Numbered from the stretch's first letter, positions 1,042-6,697 are shown. The stretch: 6,697 nucleotides of DNA from Candidatus Sumerlaeota bacterium (GCA_007136585.1 SLGR01000095.1:1-6697); one strand, 5' to 3'. Program-made: numbers and translations. Notes: generated by a model not told the origin, from the sequence alone.

Positions 1042-2235
1042 ATGATTATAGAAATACCGGGTGAATTAGAGAGGTTCGGGGGGAATATAATATACGAGCT
1101 CCAGAGGGTGCTTCTCCTGGATTCGGGGCTGAGGAAGAAGGCTCCCGACCTGGATTCCTCCGCATACCCTTACTACAATATCTCGTACGAGGAATCGTAC
1201 GCTATAGAGTCAAAAATGAGTATTGTGGTTCCGGTAAAGGATGTGCCCCTTAAGCTTCTTGAGGGGGTGCTCTTTGCTATCCCCCATCACTGCCACGTGA
1301 TCGTTGTCTCAAACAGCTCAAAGGTCCCCGCAGACAGGTTTGTTATGGAGAAAAAACTGGTGGACAATATAAGGAAGTTCACCAGAAGGCCGATATCCAT
1401 TGTTTACCAGAAGGATAAGAAACTCTCCGGGGCGCTTAAAGACGCCGGTTACAGCAGCGTGCTGGACTCTAAGGGCATCATAAAGAGCGGTAAGGGGGAG
1501 GGGATGATCCTTGCTATGGCTCTGGCGAAGGCCGCGGGGAAGAAGTATATCGGGTTCATTGACGCCGATAATTATTTCCCGGGGTCGGTTCACGAGTATG
1601 TCAAGGAGTACGCCGCCGGGTTTTCAATAAGCGAGTCACGGTTCACAATGGTCAGGATAGCCTGGTACAGCAAGCCGGAGATATCAAAGGATAACCTTTT
1701 CTTTACCAAGCAGGGGCGCTCCTCGGTGGTAACAAATAAGTTCCTGAATAAGATAATAAGTTACTATACGGGGTTTGAGACCGAGATAGTAAGGACCGGA
1801 AACGCCGGGGAGCACGCCCTCTCTACAGAGCTTGCTATGGTCCTGGGGTATTCTTCCGGGTATTCCATAGAGTCCTACCATTATATAAACCTGTTGGAAA
1901 ACTTCGGCGGCCTGGATACCATACCCTATAAGAAGGTCATGAATGATTTCATAGAGATATTCCAGATCAATTCGCGCAACCCGCATTTTCACCAGAAAAA
2001 AGGCAGCCGGCATATAAGGAATATGATAAAGGATTCCCTCAAGGTTATGTACCACTCGTCTGTATGTCCTGAGCCCATCCGGGAGGAGATAATACAGGAT
2101 CTTACGGCGCGCGAGGCCCTCAAGGAAGGGGAGGAGCTTGAGAAGGGAATCTACTATCCGCCCCTTGCGAGCCTGGATTTCGATAAGTTCAAAGACAGCC
2201 TTCCCGGACCCCTTACAGAGACTCTCTTACCCTGA
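1042..2235 (+). CDS. mpgS: Mannosyl-3-phosphoglycerate synthase (GT55)
   Basis: It transfers mannose from GDP-mannose to 3-phosphoglycerate, giving mannosyl-3-phosphoglycerate (EC 2.4.1.217), the first step of the two-step route to the compatible solute mannosylglycerate. It should be a cytoplasmic retaining GT-A enzyme. At 397 residues it has the usual family length. The N-terminus (IEIPGELERFGG, 3-14) is family-typical. The nucleotide-binding strand IVVPVKD is at 61-67, VVSNSS at 88-93, and the GKGEGM loop at 150-155. The metal-binding DAD is D174-A175-D176 within FIDADNYFPG. The MPGS-specific blocks RTGNAGEHALS (251-261) and NPHFHQKKGSRHI (313-325) are intact, as is the YYPP near the C-terminus. 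From memory these blocks match the Thermus thermophilus enzyme closely. An in-frame TAA at 1030-1032 fixes the ATG at 1042. There is no Shine-Dalgarno sequence. It is followed in the same frame by TGA, TAG and the mpgP ATG. The genes that make GDP-mannose are not in this window. Confidence 0.96.
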   Translation: MIIEIPGELERFGGNIIYELQRVLLLDSGLRKKAPDLDSSAYPYYNISYEESYAIESKMSIVVPVKDVPLKLLEGVLFAIPHHCHVIVVSNSSKVPADRFVMEKKLVDNIRKFTRRPISIVYQKDKKLSGALKDAGYSSVLDSKGIIKSGKGEGMILAMALAKAAGKKYIGFIDADNYFPGSVHEYVKEYAAGFSISESRFTMVRIAWYSKPEISKDNLFFTKQGRSSVVTNKFLNKIISYYTGFETEIVRTGNAGEHALSTELAMVLGYSSGYSIESYHYINLLENFGGLDTIPYKKVMNDFIEIFQINSRNPHFHQKKGSRHIRNMIKDSLKVMYHSSVCPEPIREEIIQDLTAREALKEGEELEKGIYYPPLASLDFDKFKDSLPGPLTETLLP

Positions 2236-2238
2236 TAG

Positions 2239-3024
2239 ATGCAGGTTGTCTTTACCGACCTTGACGGAACCCTTATAGATTTTCACGATTACTCTTACGA
2301 TAAATCCGAAGCGGCTCTTCGCAGGCTTAAGGAAAACAGTATCCCCGTTATATTCAATACCGGGAAAACCCCCGCGGAGAATTTTTATTACCGGGAAAAG
2401 CTGGGCATAGCCGATCCATTTATAACAGAGAACGGCTCGGCGATATACATACCCGAGGGGTATTTTGATTTTGAGTTTGATTACAGCCTCAGGAAGGACG
2501 GGTTTCTGGTAATAGAGCTTGGGGCCGGATACGGGCGGATTATATCGGCCCTTAATTCAATAAACTCGGCAGAGGGGTGGAGTATAAGGGGGCGTTCCGC
2601 AATGTCTGTGGATGAGGTCGCAAGGGATGCCGGTATGCCGGCGGAGCTTGCCCGCCTTGCCAGGATGAGAGAGTACAGCGAGAGTTTCAGGTTCGGAGGC
2701 GATACAGGAAATCTCAGCGAAGCCGCGGCGGGGTTTTCAATGAAAATAATCCACGGGGGTAAATACCTCAACCTTGTAGGGGAAGGAGCGGATAAGGGAA
2801 GGGCCGCACTGAGGCTCCTGGAGCTTTACAGAAAGATATACCCTGGAATAAGATCCGTTGGGATAGGGGACAGCAGCAACGATATACCTCTTCTTGAGGC
2901 TGTTGACCTCCCGGTTCTTGTGAGCACAGAGCGGGTCCTGCTTCCCGGCGCCCGTCTTACCGGGGCGGAAGGGCCGGAAGGGTTCTCAGAGGCCGTAGAG
3001 AGGTTTATTCTCCCCGGTTCCTGA
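2239..3024 (+). CDS. mpgP: Mannosyl-3-phosphoglycerate phosphatase (HAD superfamily)
   Basis: It removes the phosphate from mannosyl-3-phosphoglycerate to release mannosylglycerate (EC 3.1.3.70), completing the two-step pathway. The 261-residue length is typical. HAD motif I is FTDLDGT (5-11), with nucleophile D7 and acid/base D9. Motif II is NTGKT (40-44), with T41 as the likely phosphate contact. Motif III lysine is K186 in GADKG, and motif IV is GIGDSSNDIPLLE (208-220), with D211 and D215 as Mg2+ ligands. Family-specific cap features are ITENGSAIYIP (62-72), REYSESF (144-150) and the HGGKYLNLVG segment (172-181). The generic Cof-type sugar phosphatase alternative is made unlikely by these and by the position directly after mpgS. 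Its ATG lies three bases after the mpgS stop, in the same frame and with no ribosome binding site of its own visible, so translation is probably coupled to mpgS. The last 20 bases overlap the end of mgs on the other strand. Confidence 0.95.
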   Translation: MQVVFTDLDGTLIDFHDYSYDKSEAALRRLKENSIPVIFNTGKTPAENFYYREKLGIADPFITENGSAIYIPEGYFDFEFDYSLRKDGFLVIELGAGYGRIISALNSINSAEGWSIRGRSAMSVDEVARDAGMPAELARLARMREYSESFRFGGDTGNLSEAAAGFSMKIIHGGKYLNLVGEGADKGRAALRLLELYRKIYPGIRSVGIGDSSNDIPLLEAVDLPVLVSTERVLLPGARLTGAEGPEGFSEAVERFILPGS

Positions 3025-4189
3025 GATCTTCCAGAGTCTCGACCTTCTTGCTGACCCTGGCATAACCGTCTATCATCCTGTATAGGTGTCTGAAAGAGTA
3101 GCTGTACCCCTTAAGAGCCACGTTGGTGGTGTACCAGAGAACCCTTGATACCCAGAGTTTGAAAAGGAGTTTTCTCCAGTCGGGGCATCCGGGATCAAAA
3201 TTTTCAAGGAGCGTCCTGTAGGAAGTGTACCAGTTGGCGTCATCCATAAAATCAAAGACGATCCTCTCAGTGTTCTCTCTCATTTTTTTTCCTATTTCAG
3301 GCGGGAAGAGGTCCAGGAGGCTTTTCTGCTTTTCGTTCCAGTCCTCCGAGAGGAGGCAGAGTGTTTTCTGTATATCAAACCCCAGCTTGTTCTCAACCCT
3401 GTTTGAGACCCCCGAGGCGTGTTCTATCCTATGTTTTATATGACTGATGCCGGTTCCGCCCTGGAGGTAGTATATCACTGAGAAACACTCGTAAAGCATT
3501 GATTCCAGCGCGTCAAGACCCGGGTAGAGCGCATGGTCCTTCCCCGAGCTCATATAGGTCTCGTACATAGAGAACCCGTTTTCCACCATTTTGTAGGTAT
3601 AGATTGTATCTATACCCCAGTCGGACTGGGCCAGTACATCCGGGTCTTTTATGAGCGTTTCCGCGACCTTTCTTTCCATAAGAAGCTCCCCGCCGAGCGG
3701 CTGCTCTATGAAGGGAAGCTGGGTATCGGGATAGAGGAGCGAGAACCCGGTCTTTGTTATCATCCAGGTTATCATCGCATCGGTCCTGGCCCTGGGAAAG
3801 TAGTGCCTGACAACGTCAAACCCCATATTGGCCGCTTTCTCCGATTCCAGGACCCACTCTTTTGAGAAGTTCTTGATATCGGCGTCATAGAAGTGTATTC
3901 TTTTAAAACCGGTCTCTTCTATGAAATACTTCAAGGCGGTATTCATCCCGTCGCCTTTTCCGGGCCTTTTGCTTCCGAGCCTCTCCTGGACGAGGAAAGT
4001 AACCTTTGAGTCTTTCAGCGCGGGGTCCCCTTTAACCGCCTCAAGGGACTGGGTGTAACACTCGTTCTCTCTGGCCCCTACGCAGAGCACCTCGCCCACC
4101 TCGGGGATATCCGCCGCGGCTCTTATATTATTTACAAATACCTCAACGTTCTCTTCCTTGAACGGAAACGACACTAAACTTTTACTCAT
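3005..4189 (-). CDS. mgs: Mannosylglycerate synthase, single-step (GT78)
   Basis: It condenses GDP-mannose with D-glycerate directly to mannosylglycerate (EC 2.4.1.269), with no phosphorylated intermediate. The 394-residue protein aligns along its whole length, by recall, with the Rhodothermus marinus enzyme of known structure. The N-terminal FPFKEE (8-13), QERLGSKRPGKGDGMNTAL (68-86), IHFYDAD (98-104), VRHYFPRARTDAMITWMIT (127-145), IEQPLGGELLM (161-171) and SDWGIDT (189-195) are near-identical. The expected functional residues are present: E13, K78, the metal-binding D102-A-D104, R133, W191, H219 as a third metal ligand, and Y222. The C-terminal helical domain is complete (NFMDE-like FDFMDDANW 312-320, LLFKLWVSRVLWYT 341-354). 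The start is supported by a near-perfect Shine-Dalgarno sequence and by the match to the R. marinus N-terminus. It is the second gene of a minus-strand pair with the glycerate kinase and overlaps mpgP tail to tail. R. marinus Mgs tolerates other GDP-sugars and acceptors such as lactate or glycolate, so specificity here is inferred. Confidence 0.96.
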   Translation of the reverse strand: MSKSLVSFPFKEENVEVFVNNIRAAADIPEVGEVLCVGARENECYTQSLEAVKGDPALKDSKVTFLVQERLGSKRPGKGDGMNTALKYFIEETGFKRIHFYDADIKNFSKEWVLESEKAANMGFDVVRHYFPRARTDAMITWMITKTGFSLLYPDTQLPFIEQPLGGELLMERKVAETLIKDPDVLAQSDWGIDTIYTYKMVENGFSMYETYMSSGKDHALYPGLDALESMLYECFSVIYYLQGGTGISHIKHRIEHASGVSNRVENKLGFDIQKTLCLLSEDWNEKQKSLLDLFPPEIGKKMRENTERIVFDFMDDANWYTSYRTLLENFDPGCPDWRKLLFKLWVSRVLWYTTNVALKGYSYSFRHLYRMIDGYARVSKKVETLEDLRNRGE

Positions 4190-4193
4190 CTCA

Positions 4194-4199
4194 CCTCCT
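4194..4199 (-). promoter_or_regulatory. Strong Shine-Dalgarno site for mgs
   Basis: Read on the minus strand, the bases before the mgs ATG are CAGGAGGTGAG. AGGAGGTGA is a full match to the anti-Shine-Dalgarno region, and the core AGGAGG ends four bases before the ATG. It fixes the start at 4189 and predicts strong translation. None of the plus-strand genes in the window has a comparable site. Confidence 0.85.
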
Positions 4200-4223
4200 G
4201 GGGTCGGACTATAACTTTATAAC

Positions 4224-5060
4224 TTATTGCCGGCATTTTACATCCTTTATCCTTCTCTCTGCGTCGATCTCCACCACTATATCCGCGGTCTCAGGCAAAG
4301 TTTCCGCTATATGCTGCACCCAGCGCTGGTAATGGTCCACAAAATCCCTCACCTGGCTCTCTGTCATCGCTTCTTTACCCTCGGCCCTGAGCTCTTTTTC
4401 CTGCTGCAGGCGGTGGCGGTAGACGTCATCAAAATCCTCTGTATATATCATAATCAGCAGCTCAATATATTTCCAGAGCCGGGAGTAATCTGTTTTCAGC
4501 CTTGAGTTTATGTACTCTGCAGTTTCGGAGTCCGGGTCAAGGCGGGATTCAATCCGGTTAACGGGACTTTTTATCTTATTATCATTAACAGGGGCTTCGC
4601 AGAGGTTCCACCCTTCAAAGATTATAAAATCCGGGCGTCCCTTAAATATCTGCCAGTCCTTCTTCGGGGCCCGGTCTCCCTTGCCTCCCTTGAGCCACTT
4701 ATTAAACCGTGGTATACGGGTTACGGTCTCCTCTTTTGCTCCGGAAAGGTTTCTTATTACCTCCGCGGCAAGGCGGGTGTCGTGGGTTCCGGGGCCCCGC
4801 ACGTCAAGGAGTTTTCTTTTCCGGGCCTCTTTCTCCCGTTTATCGTAACTCCAGTAGAAGTCGTCTATGGAAAAGGAGACCGTTCTTTTTCCGGCTTTCT
4901 CAAGGTTTTCTTTTATCCTGGAGGCAAGTGTGGTTTTCCCCGATCCGGGATGTCCGTTTATCCCTATAACAGGCGAGGGGGTTCTGGCGGTCCTGAGAAT
5001 CCACCTGGAAAATGTTTCTGCCGAATCCCTGAGTTCCCTGCCTTTGAGCTCTTTGAACAA
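4224..5060 (-). CDS. D-glycerate 3-kinase, GLYK-type P-loop kinase
   Basis: It is predicted to phosphorylate D-glycerate to 3-phosphoglycerate with ATP (EC 2.7.1.31). It belongs to the P-loop family of plant GLYK and related bacterial and fungal kinases, not to the GarK/GlxK families. Over 278 residues it shows Walker A GHPGSGKT (36-43), SIDDFY (64-69), LLDVRGPGTHDTRL (84-97), the basic PRFNKWLKGGKGDR segment (117-130), IIFEGWNLC (146-154), and the late HRLQQEKELRAEG...MTESQVRDFVDHY block (216-244). All are GLYK hallmarks. A uridine kinase or phosphoribulokinase is the remote alternative. The start is TTG at 5060: no ATG or GTG lies nearby, an AAAGGA motif sits six bases upstream, and a good promoter precedes it. 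It is the first gene of a pair, 34 bases before mgs. The product 3-phosphoglycerate is the MpgS acceptor and the substrate D-glycerate is the Mgs acceptor, so the enzyme links the two mannosylglycerate routes or salvages glycerate when the solute is broken down. That role is inferred from context. Confidence 0.88.
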   Translation of the reverse strand: MFKELKGRELRDSAETFSRWILRTARTPSPVIGINGHPGSGKTTLASRIKENLEKAGKRTVSFSIDDFYWSYDKREKEARKRKLLDVRGPGTHDTRLAAEVIRNLSGAKEETVTRIPRFNKWLKGGKGDRAPKKDWQIFKGRPDFIIFEGWNLCEAPVNDNKIKSPVNRIESRLDPDSETAEYINSRLKTDYSRLWKYIELLIMIYTEDFDDVYRHRLQQEKELRAEGKEAMTESQVRDFVDHYQRWVQHIAETLPETADIVVEIDAERRIKDVKCRQ

Positions 5061-5084: not shown

Positions 5085-5096
5085 TAATTATAATTA
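5085..5096. repeat. Perfect 12-bp AT palindrome over the kinase-mgs -10 box
   Basis: TAATTATAATTA equals its own reverse complement and is also a direct repeat of TAATTA. It covers the minus-strand -10 element and carries a TATAAT on both strands (plus 5089-5094, minus 5092-5087). It could serve as an operator for a dimeric regulator, as a bidirectional -10 element, or simply reflect AT richness at a promoter. Confidence 0.5.
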
Positions 5097-5115
5097 ATTG
5101 TTGCGGAGATGTGAA
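5087..5115 (-). promoter_or_regulatory. Sigma70-like promoter of the glycerate kinase-mgs operon
   Basis: On the minus strand TTCACA (5115-5110, five of six matches to -35) is followed after exactly 17 bases by a perfect TATAAT (5092-5087). RNA would start near 5080, giving a leader of about 20 bases that contains the AAAGGA ribosome binding site. The -10 box lies inside a perfect 12-base palindrome. This is the best-formed promoter in the window. Confidence 0.65.
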
Positions 5116-6420: not shown

Positions 6421-6697
6421 ATGTTTCCGCTCAGAAACTTAAAAAGAAACCTACAGAAACTCTTCAGGCAGCCTTTTTACGGTATAAGGGTATTTTTAAG
6501 GCGGGTGAAAGCCGATTTTTTTTACAGAACACGGGGCGGAGCGGCCCCGTTTCCCGAATCCGTAACACTTTTTCTAACCTACAGGTGCAACCTGAGGTGC
6601 AGGATGTGCGGGCAGTGGGGGGATAAGGGGGTCACTAAAAAAAACGGTACCCTTACCGGGGATATGGGGTTTTCCGAGGCTGAAAAGGTCATAGAAG
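6421..6697 (+). CDS. Radical SAM protein, N-terminal part (runs off the window)
   Basis: The visible 92 residues begin with a basic, amphipathic-looking stretch (MFPLRNLKRNLQKLFRQPFY). They then enter a radical SAM core strand, SVTLFLTYRCNLRCRMC (47-63), with the CX3CX2C cluster motif at C56, C60 and C63. These three cysteines bind the [4Fe-4S] cluster that cleaves S-adenosylmethionine. The sequence CGQWGD right after the motif is common in radical SAM proteins that act on peptides, lipids or sugars. There is no B12-binding domain before the core, so it is not the usual N-terminal cobalamin type. Any SPASM or other C-terminal domain lies outside the window, so the substrate is unknown. It follows the aminotransferase by 24 bases on the same strand and may be co-transcribed or start from its own -10 box. 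Confidence 0.88.
   Translation, partial: MFPLRNLKRNLQKLFRQPFYGIRVFLRRVKADFFYRTRGGAAPFPESVTLFLTYRCNLRCRMCGQWGDKGVTKKNGTLTGDMGFSEAEKVIE

Follow-up and report, generated by a model that had tools for sequence, protein, structure and literature searches.

Two unrelated enzymes for the synthesis of mannosylglycerate (MG) and a glycerate kinase are encoded together in one compact locus. The locus is real and recurrent; its enzymes are known and their arrangement is new. A glycerate kinase immediately adjoins the gene for the one-step synthase (GT78) in three separate GT78 clades, and the kinases belong to three unrelated classes. The model that we favour, whose chances as a whole we put at about even, is that of a two-route MG locus in which the kinase (GLYK) would phosphorylate free D-glycerate, the acceptor of the one-step synthase (MGS), to 3-phosphoglycerate (3-PG).

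The window, that is, the whole stretch of DNA analysed, is the complete 6697-bp contig C190 of a draft MAG (G000; 1.88 Mb, 257 contigs, 88% complete). The locus contains the following features:

1042..2235, plus strand: MPGS, mannosyl-3-phosphoglycerate synthase (GT55), 397 aa
2239..3024, plus strand: MPGP, mannosyl-3-phosphoglycerate phosphatase (HAD-IIB), 261 aa, starting 3 nt past the MPGS stop
3005..4189, minus strand: MGS, mannosylglycerate synthase (GT78), 394 aa
4190..4223, minus strand: GLYK-MGS junction, 34 nt, with an AGGAGG ribosome-binding site for MGS and most of a presumed dispersed repeat
4224..5060, minus strand: GLYK, D-glycerate 3-kinase (class III glycerate kinase), 278 aa, TTG start
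5087..5115, minus strand: candidate sigma-70-like promoter of the GLYK-MGS operon, TTCACA-17-TATAAT (11/12), about 27 bp upstream of GLYK

The open reading frames agreed with the coordinates and orientations given to the four genes in the initial annotation. MGS and MPGP are convergent, and their 3' ends overlap by 20 nt. GLYK is the upstream gene of the predicted GLYK-MGS operon. The candidate promoter is a consensus match only, and the region holds 9 such matches versus 4.4 expected. Between GLYK and MGS there is a 30-bp sequence (window 4199-4228, GGTCGGACTATAACTTTATAACTTAT core) with near-identical copies elsewhere in the genome, in contigs C33, C154 and C181. Because it occurs in several contigs, and because GLYK and MGS overlap instead in a second genus (G001, see below), this sequence is apparently a short dispersed repeat that was inserted into the operon.

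The module is flanked by genes for an AAA ATPase and a DegT aminotransferase. The former (193-993, upstream of MPGS on the same strand) resembles the XrtA/PEP-CTERM-associated ATPase, with a TIGR03015 score of 217 bits under the cut-off of 324.5. The last 121 bases of the window (6577-6697) are the first 121 of contig C251 (L016 1-121), which is probably the neighbouring contig in the assembly graph. C251 extends the radical SAM gene of the window and then encodes, by eye, GT4-like, WbqC-like and PCMT-like proteins.

The four proteins were assigned from family models, solved structures and conserved residues. MPGS matched PF09488 (476.6 bits) and TIGR02460 (469.6 versus a cut-off of 351.2) in Pfam/NCBIfam, and its nearest solved structure was 2zu7 (4e-105). 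D174, D176, R205, N254, E257, H258, H315 and H317, which include the DAD motif, were invariant among 12 aligned homologues. These features point to the conversion of GDP-mannose and 3-PG to mannosyl-3-phosphoglycerate. MPGP scored 216.7 bits with the subfamily model TIGR01486, over its cut-off of 164.75, and 218.5 with the narrower equivalog TIGR02461, under its cut-off of 244.35. Its assignment is therefore based on TIGR01486, on the PDB homologues (1wzc, 9e-38; 1wzc and 3ztw, about 1e-37) and on the neighbouring MPGS. The HAD catalytic motifs DxDGT (DLDGT), K-T (GKT) and GDSxND (GDSSND) were retained. MGS matched PF21969 (GT domain, 318.4 bits) and PF21967 (C-terminal domain, 108.4 bits), and its nearest solved structures were 2y4j/2bo4 (5e-125), which we take to be MGS of Rhodothermus marinus. 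D102, D104, R133, T141, D194 and H219 were invariant in 38 aligned homologues and are presumably the active-site residues of the R. marinus enzyme, as known from its published structure. MGS is predicted to form MG from GDP-mannose and D-glycerate in one step.

GLYK is distant from the characterised enzymes, and its AlphaFold model, which was built on two sequences only, was poor (pLDDT 39.6). Its structure matches were the D-glycerate 3-kinases 7xpc (3e-29) and 6ckg (1e-21) and the yeast protein 1odf (4e-21), and the first PDB match that is not a glycerate kinase was far weaker (1e-3). The motifs GxPGxGKTT, SIDDFYW, PRFNKW, GxGDRAP and EGWN are common to the window and G001. The predicted product from D-glycerate is 3-PG, which is also formed by the class III kinases of Arabidopsis and yeast (PMC2063504, PMC4378991). 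GLYK might instead phosphorylate a substrate other than glycerate, in which case the neighbourhood would mean little. The top Pfam match was PF00485, similarity in Pfam is seen at this level only, and the PF00485 superfamily is diverse (PMC2063504). However, D-glycerate 3-kinases and the yeast homologue make up the top three PDB matches, the next match being far weaker, and two other unrelated glycerate kinase families occupy the same place beside GT78. We consider a non-glycerate substrate very unlikely.

The same module was detected in 'Elusimicrobia bacterium T1Sed10_83R1' (G001), a member of the same family (PWEK01) but of a different genus; the name T1Sed10 refers to a set of metagenome reads from a soda lake. 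At 6922-10917 of contig C31, inside 65.8 kb of sequence, the four genes have identical order and orientation, GLYK-MGS facing MPGP-MPGS. The flanks are different: MgtE-like genes (read from the sequences) and DUF4168 proteins on one side, and a metallo-beta-lactamase-fold protein and a radical SAM protein on the other. As the window consists of one short contig from a fragmented MAG, chance or an assembly artefact could have united unrelated osmolyte genes in it. The same arrangement with unrelated flanks in another genus contradicts this explanation, which we regard as extremely unlikely, and indicates a real module. The objection of a misjoin is thereby answered, and the proposal in the initial annotation that both routes and a glycerate kinase form one compact module is borne out.

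Identity between the window and G001 was 79% for MPGS, 73% for MGS, 53% for GLYK and 51% for MPGP. Synonymous sites were saturated (pS 0.78-0.84) and pN was low (0.13-0.34), which suggests purifying selection on each of the four genes. Together with the retained motif residues, the saturated synonymous sites rule out decay of the module genes and confirm the earlier view that the family motifs are intact. Among the 16 genomes of the phylum that were searched, GT55, a strong GT78 and GLYK occurred together in G000 and G001 and were absent elsewhere; one other genome gave a weak, partial GT78 match. A strong GT55 was found in 3 of 386 relatives (mostly one per family), two of them being G000 and G001. 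About 7 kb from the module, G001 also encodes a GH65 phosphorylase-like protein with two CBS domains (L014 18138-19997), which could act on a related glycoside.

A motif-limited GT78 scan of genome contigs gave 33 GT78 loci in 32 genomes, 10 of which also contain GT55. We grouped these 10 genomes into five lineages. GT55, MPGP and GT78 lie side by side in three of the five, in three different layouts:

Window family: GT55/MPGP and GT78 convergent; class III kinase
Desulfohalobiaceae (L030, L031): GT55/MPGP and GT78 divergent; class I kinase
Acidimicrobiaceae (L033): GT55/MPGP and GT78 co-directional; no kinase found within the fetched stretch

The locus is not unique: it recurs in a second genus, and Desulfohalobiaceae have a parallel arrangement with an unrelated kinase. 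The stretches fetched around GT55 in the WOR-3 group contained no GT78, and no plasmid-borne GT78 was found. The dual mannosylglycerate pathways of R. marinus were reportedly described by Martins in 1999 and Borges in 2004. As in the window, one cell has GT78 MGS together with GT55 MPGS and MPGP. This coexistence, to which the initial annotation had pointed, was confirmed for Rhodothermus, but the two routes are far apart (about 0.87-0.89 Mb): GT55 and GT78 are separated by about 865 and 891 kb in complete chromosomes of the genus. Rhodothermus further differs in that its class II kinase lies elsewhere and a PF22422 hydrolase gene adjoins MPGS.

Some neighbouring genes were also recorded at the GT78 loci. 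In Desulfohalobiaceae, a myo-inositol-1-phosphate synthase gene follows MPGP in L030 (2326-3429) and L031 (2420-3544), which may mean that the locus also serves a second organic solute pathway, and L031 has an Hsp20 gene downstream of ManC. The Bipolaricaulota-type loci L018, L020, L022, L023, L024 and L029 have in common a MalFGK-like ABC transporter upstream and a convergent gene for a protein in which a GntR domain is joined to a solute-binding-protein domain (Pfam confirmation for L020 only). The GT78 proteins of L020 and L022, from Bipolaricaulota- and Caldisericota-labelled MAGs, are near-identical (end branches 0.02 and 0.01), which probably reflects recent transfer or the mislabelling of a bin.

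In a comparison that rests on draft MAGs, the motif-limited scan and 34 GT78 genomes, the class III kinase is upstream of MGS in the window and G001. A class I kinase (PF02595, 471-473 bits) directly follows MGS in L030 and L031 and is itself followed by ManC. In L019, L021 and L028, which are from actinobacterial MAGs without GT55, a class II kinase (PF13660 plus MOFRL) directly follows MGS. The MGS and kinase genes overlap by 4 nt in G001, L019, L021, L028 and L031 and by 23 nt in L030, and the gap in the window is 34 nt. The GT55-only loci that were fetched and examined had no kinase nearby.

One of the three kinase classes was present in 31 of the 34 GT78 genomes, never two, and none was found in three. 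Class I was detected in 8 genomes and class II in 21, and class III is confined to the window family. The kinase adjoins GT78 in a minority of these genomes only. Class I or II kinases were also found in 9 of 14 control genomes, and the classes are mutually exclusive as a general rule (PMC2063504). Since kinases are common and their classes generally exclusive, presence means little and adjacency alone carries weight. By a rough estimate, a lone kinase would adjoin GT78 by chance in about 0.03 of the 34 genomes, versus 7 genomes in three lineages observed. Searches of G000 and G001 detected neither class I nor class II kinases, and GLYK therefore seems to be their sole glycerate kinase.

The class II pairs without GT55, and the lack of a kinase near the examined GT55-only loci, suggested that the kinase follows MGS and not the pair of routes. 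This result does not support, as stated, the proposal of the initial annotation that the kinase links the acceptors of both routes and could thereby let the cell switch between them according to stress (salt or heat) or carbon state. The salt/heat switch would be carried over from Rhodothermus by analogy. In favour of such joining, the product of class III kinases, 3-PG, is the acceptor of MPGS (PMC4378991), and the two lineages that combine a kinase, GT78 and GT55 at one locus use unrelated kinases, their common GT55 clade being rejected by the AU test (p = 0.0001). However, the class II kinases adjoin GT78 where GT55 is missing, the product of both class I glycerate kinases of E. coli is 2-PG, and Acidimicrobiaceae L033 has both routes adjacent with no kinase found nearby. 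Bridging or switching is possible, yet it is other than the simplest reading, and we hold it to be unlikely as the reason for the kinase.

The trees bear on whether these loci arose separately. In the GT78 tree, the three kinase-bearing groups are in separate starred clades and three state changes are needed; a single clade of the window and Desulfohalobiaceae was not rejected (AU p 0.167). In the GT55 tree, the window joins Rhodothermus (99/97), and a clade of the window and Desulfohalobiaceae was rejected (p = 0.0001). Taken with the trees, the different layouts and non-homologous kinases make separate assembly the better reading. In a further reading, unrelated lineages would have converged on an acceptor-partition module that unites MGS, MPGS/MPGP and unrelated kinases at one locus, and a single D-glycerate/3-PG node would set both the route to the solute and the fate of surplus glycerate. 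We consider this reading doubtful.

The favoured two-route model builds on the observed genes, their intactness, the conservation of the module and the recurrent association of GT78 with glycerate kinases of unrelated families. MPGS and MPGP would make MG out of GDP-mannose and 3-PG, and MGS would convert GDP-mannose and free D-glycerate to MG in one step. GLYK, probably co-transcribed with MGS, would recapture free D-glycerate that MGS leaves unused or that arises from MG turnover. The 3-PG formed would enter central metabolism and could also be the acceptor of the adjacent MPGS, so D-glycerate could reach MG through either route in the window. A kinase accompanies MGS whether or not GT55 is present, and its role is therefore most likely tied to free D-glycerate. 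Enzyme activities, co-transcription and D-glycerate handling are the predicted parts of this model.

The kinase might also have no role in synthesis and only return D-glycerate from post-stress MG breakdown to glycolysis. It does accompany an enzyme that handles free glycerate, and glucosylglycerate phosphorylase genes often have a glycerate kinase beside them (PMC7178133), which is a precedent for the two-route model as well. However, a search for MG hydrolase of the known type (PF22422) found none in G000, G001 and two Desulfohalobiaceae genomes (G110, G111). In the Rhodothermus-genus loci L126, L127 and L128, a PF22422 (MGH1-like) gene, which is likely a mannosylglycerate hydrolase gene beside the synthesis genes, lies about 0.35 kb from MPGS on the opposite strand, whereas the kinase sits elsewhere. 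We consider pure salvage fairly unlikely. The hydrolase result also weakens the turnover part of the two-route model, since turnover would need another enzyme.

We found no description of such a two-route locus with a kinase in the papers searched, among which mannosylglycerate and glycerate kinase were brought together only in an unrelated Lactiplantibacillus survey. Related systems are known. Clusters of glucosylglycerate phosphorylase, glycerate kinase, GpgS and GpgP likewise have a kinase beside glycosylglycerate genes, but they concern another solute and contain a GH13_18 phosphorylase and GpgS/GpgP, whereas the partner in the window is the one-step synthase GT78 (PMC7178133). The bifunctional MgsD of Dehalococcoides likewise combines a GT55-type synthase and a HAD phosphatase for MG, but it is one fused protein, described with no mention of GT78, and the window has two adjacent genes (PMC8490865). 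Plant and yeast class III kinases belong to the same sequence family as GLYK, with 3-PG as the predicted product; members of the class are on record from plants, fungi, cyanobacteria and a few gammaproteobacteria (PMC2063504), whereas GLYK is found in an osmolyte operon of an Elusimicrobia-labelled lineage.

Since Rhodothermus it has been asked why a cell should retain two unrelated enzymes for one solute, and both are kept in the compact locus described here. Both routes are extended well past the thermophiles in which they have been studied. The pattern suggests that the one-step route needs an adjacent glycerate kinase, which can be supplied by any of three unrelated families, and the role of free D-glycerate in mannosylglycerate metabolism becomes directly testable.
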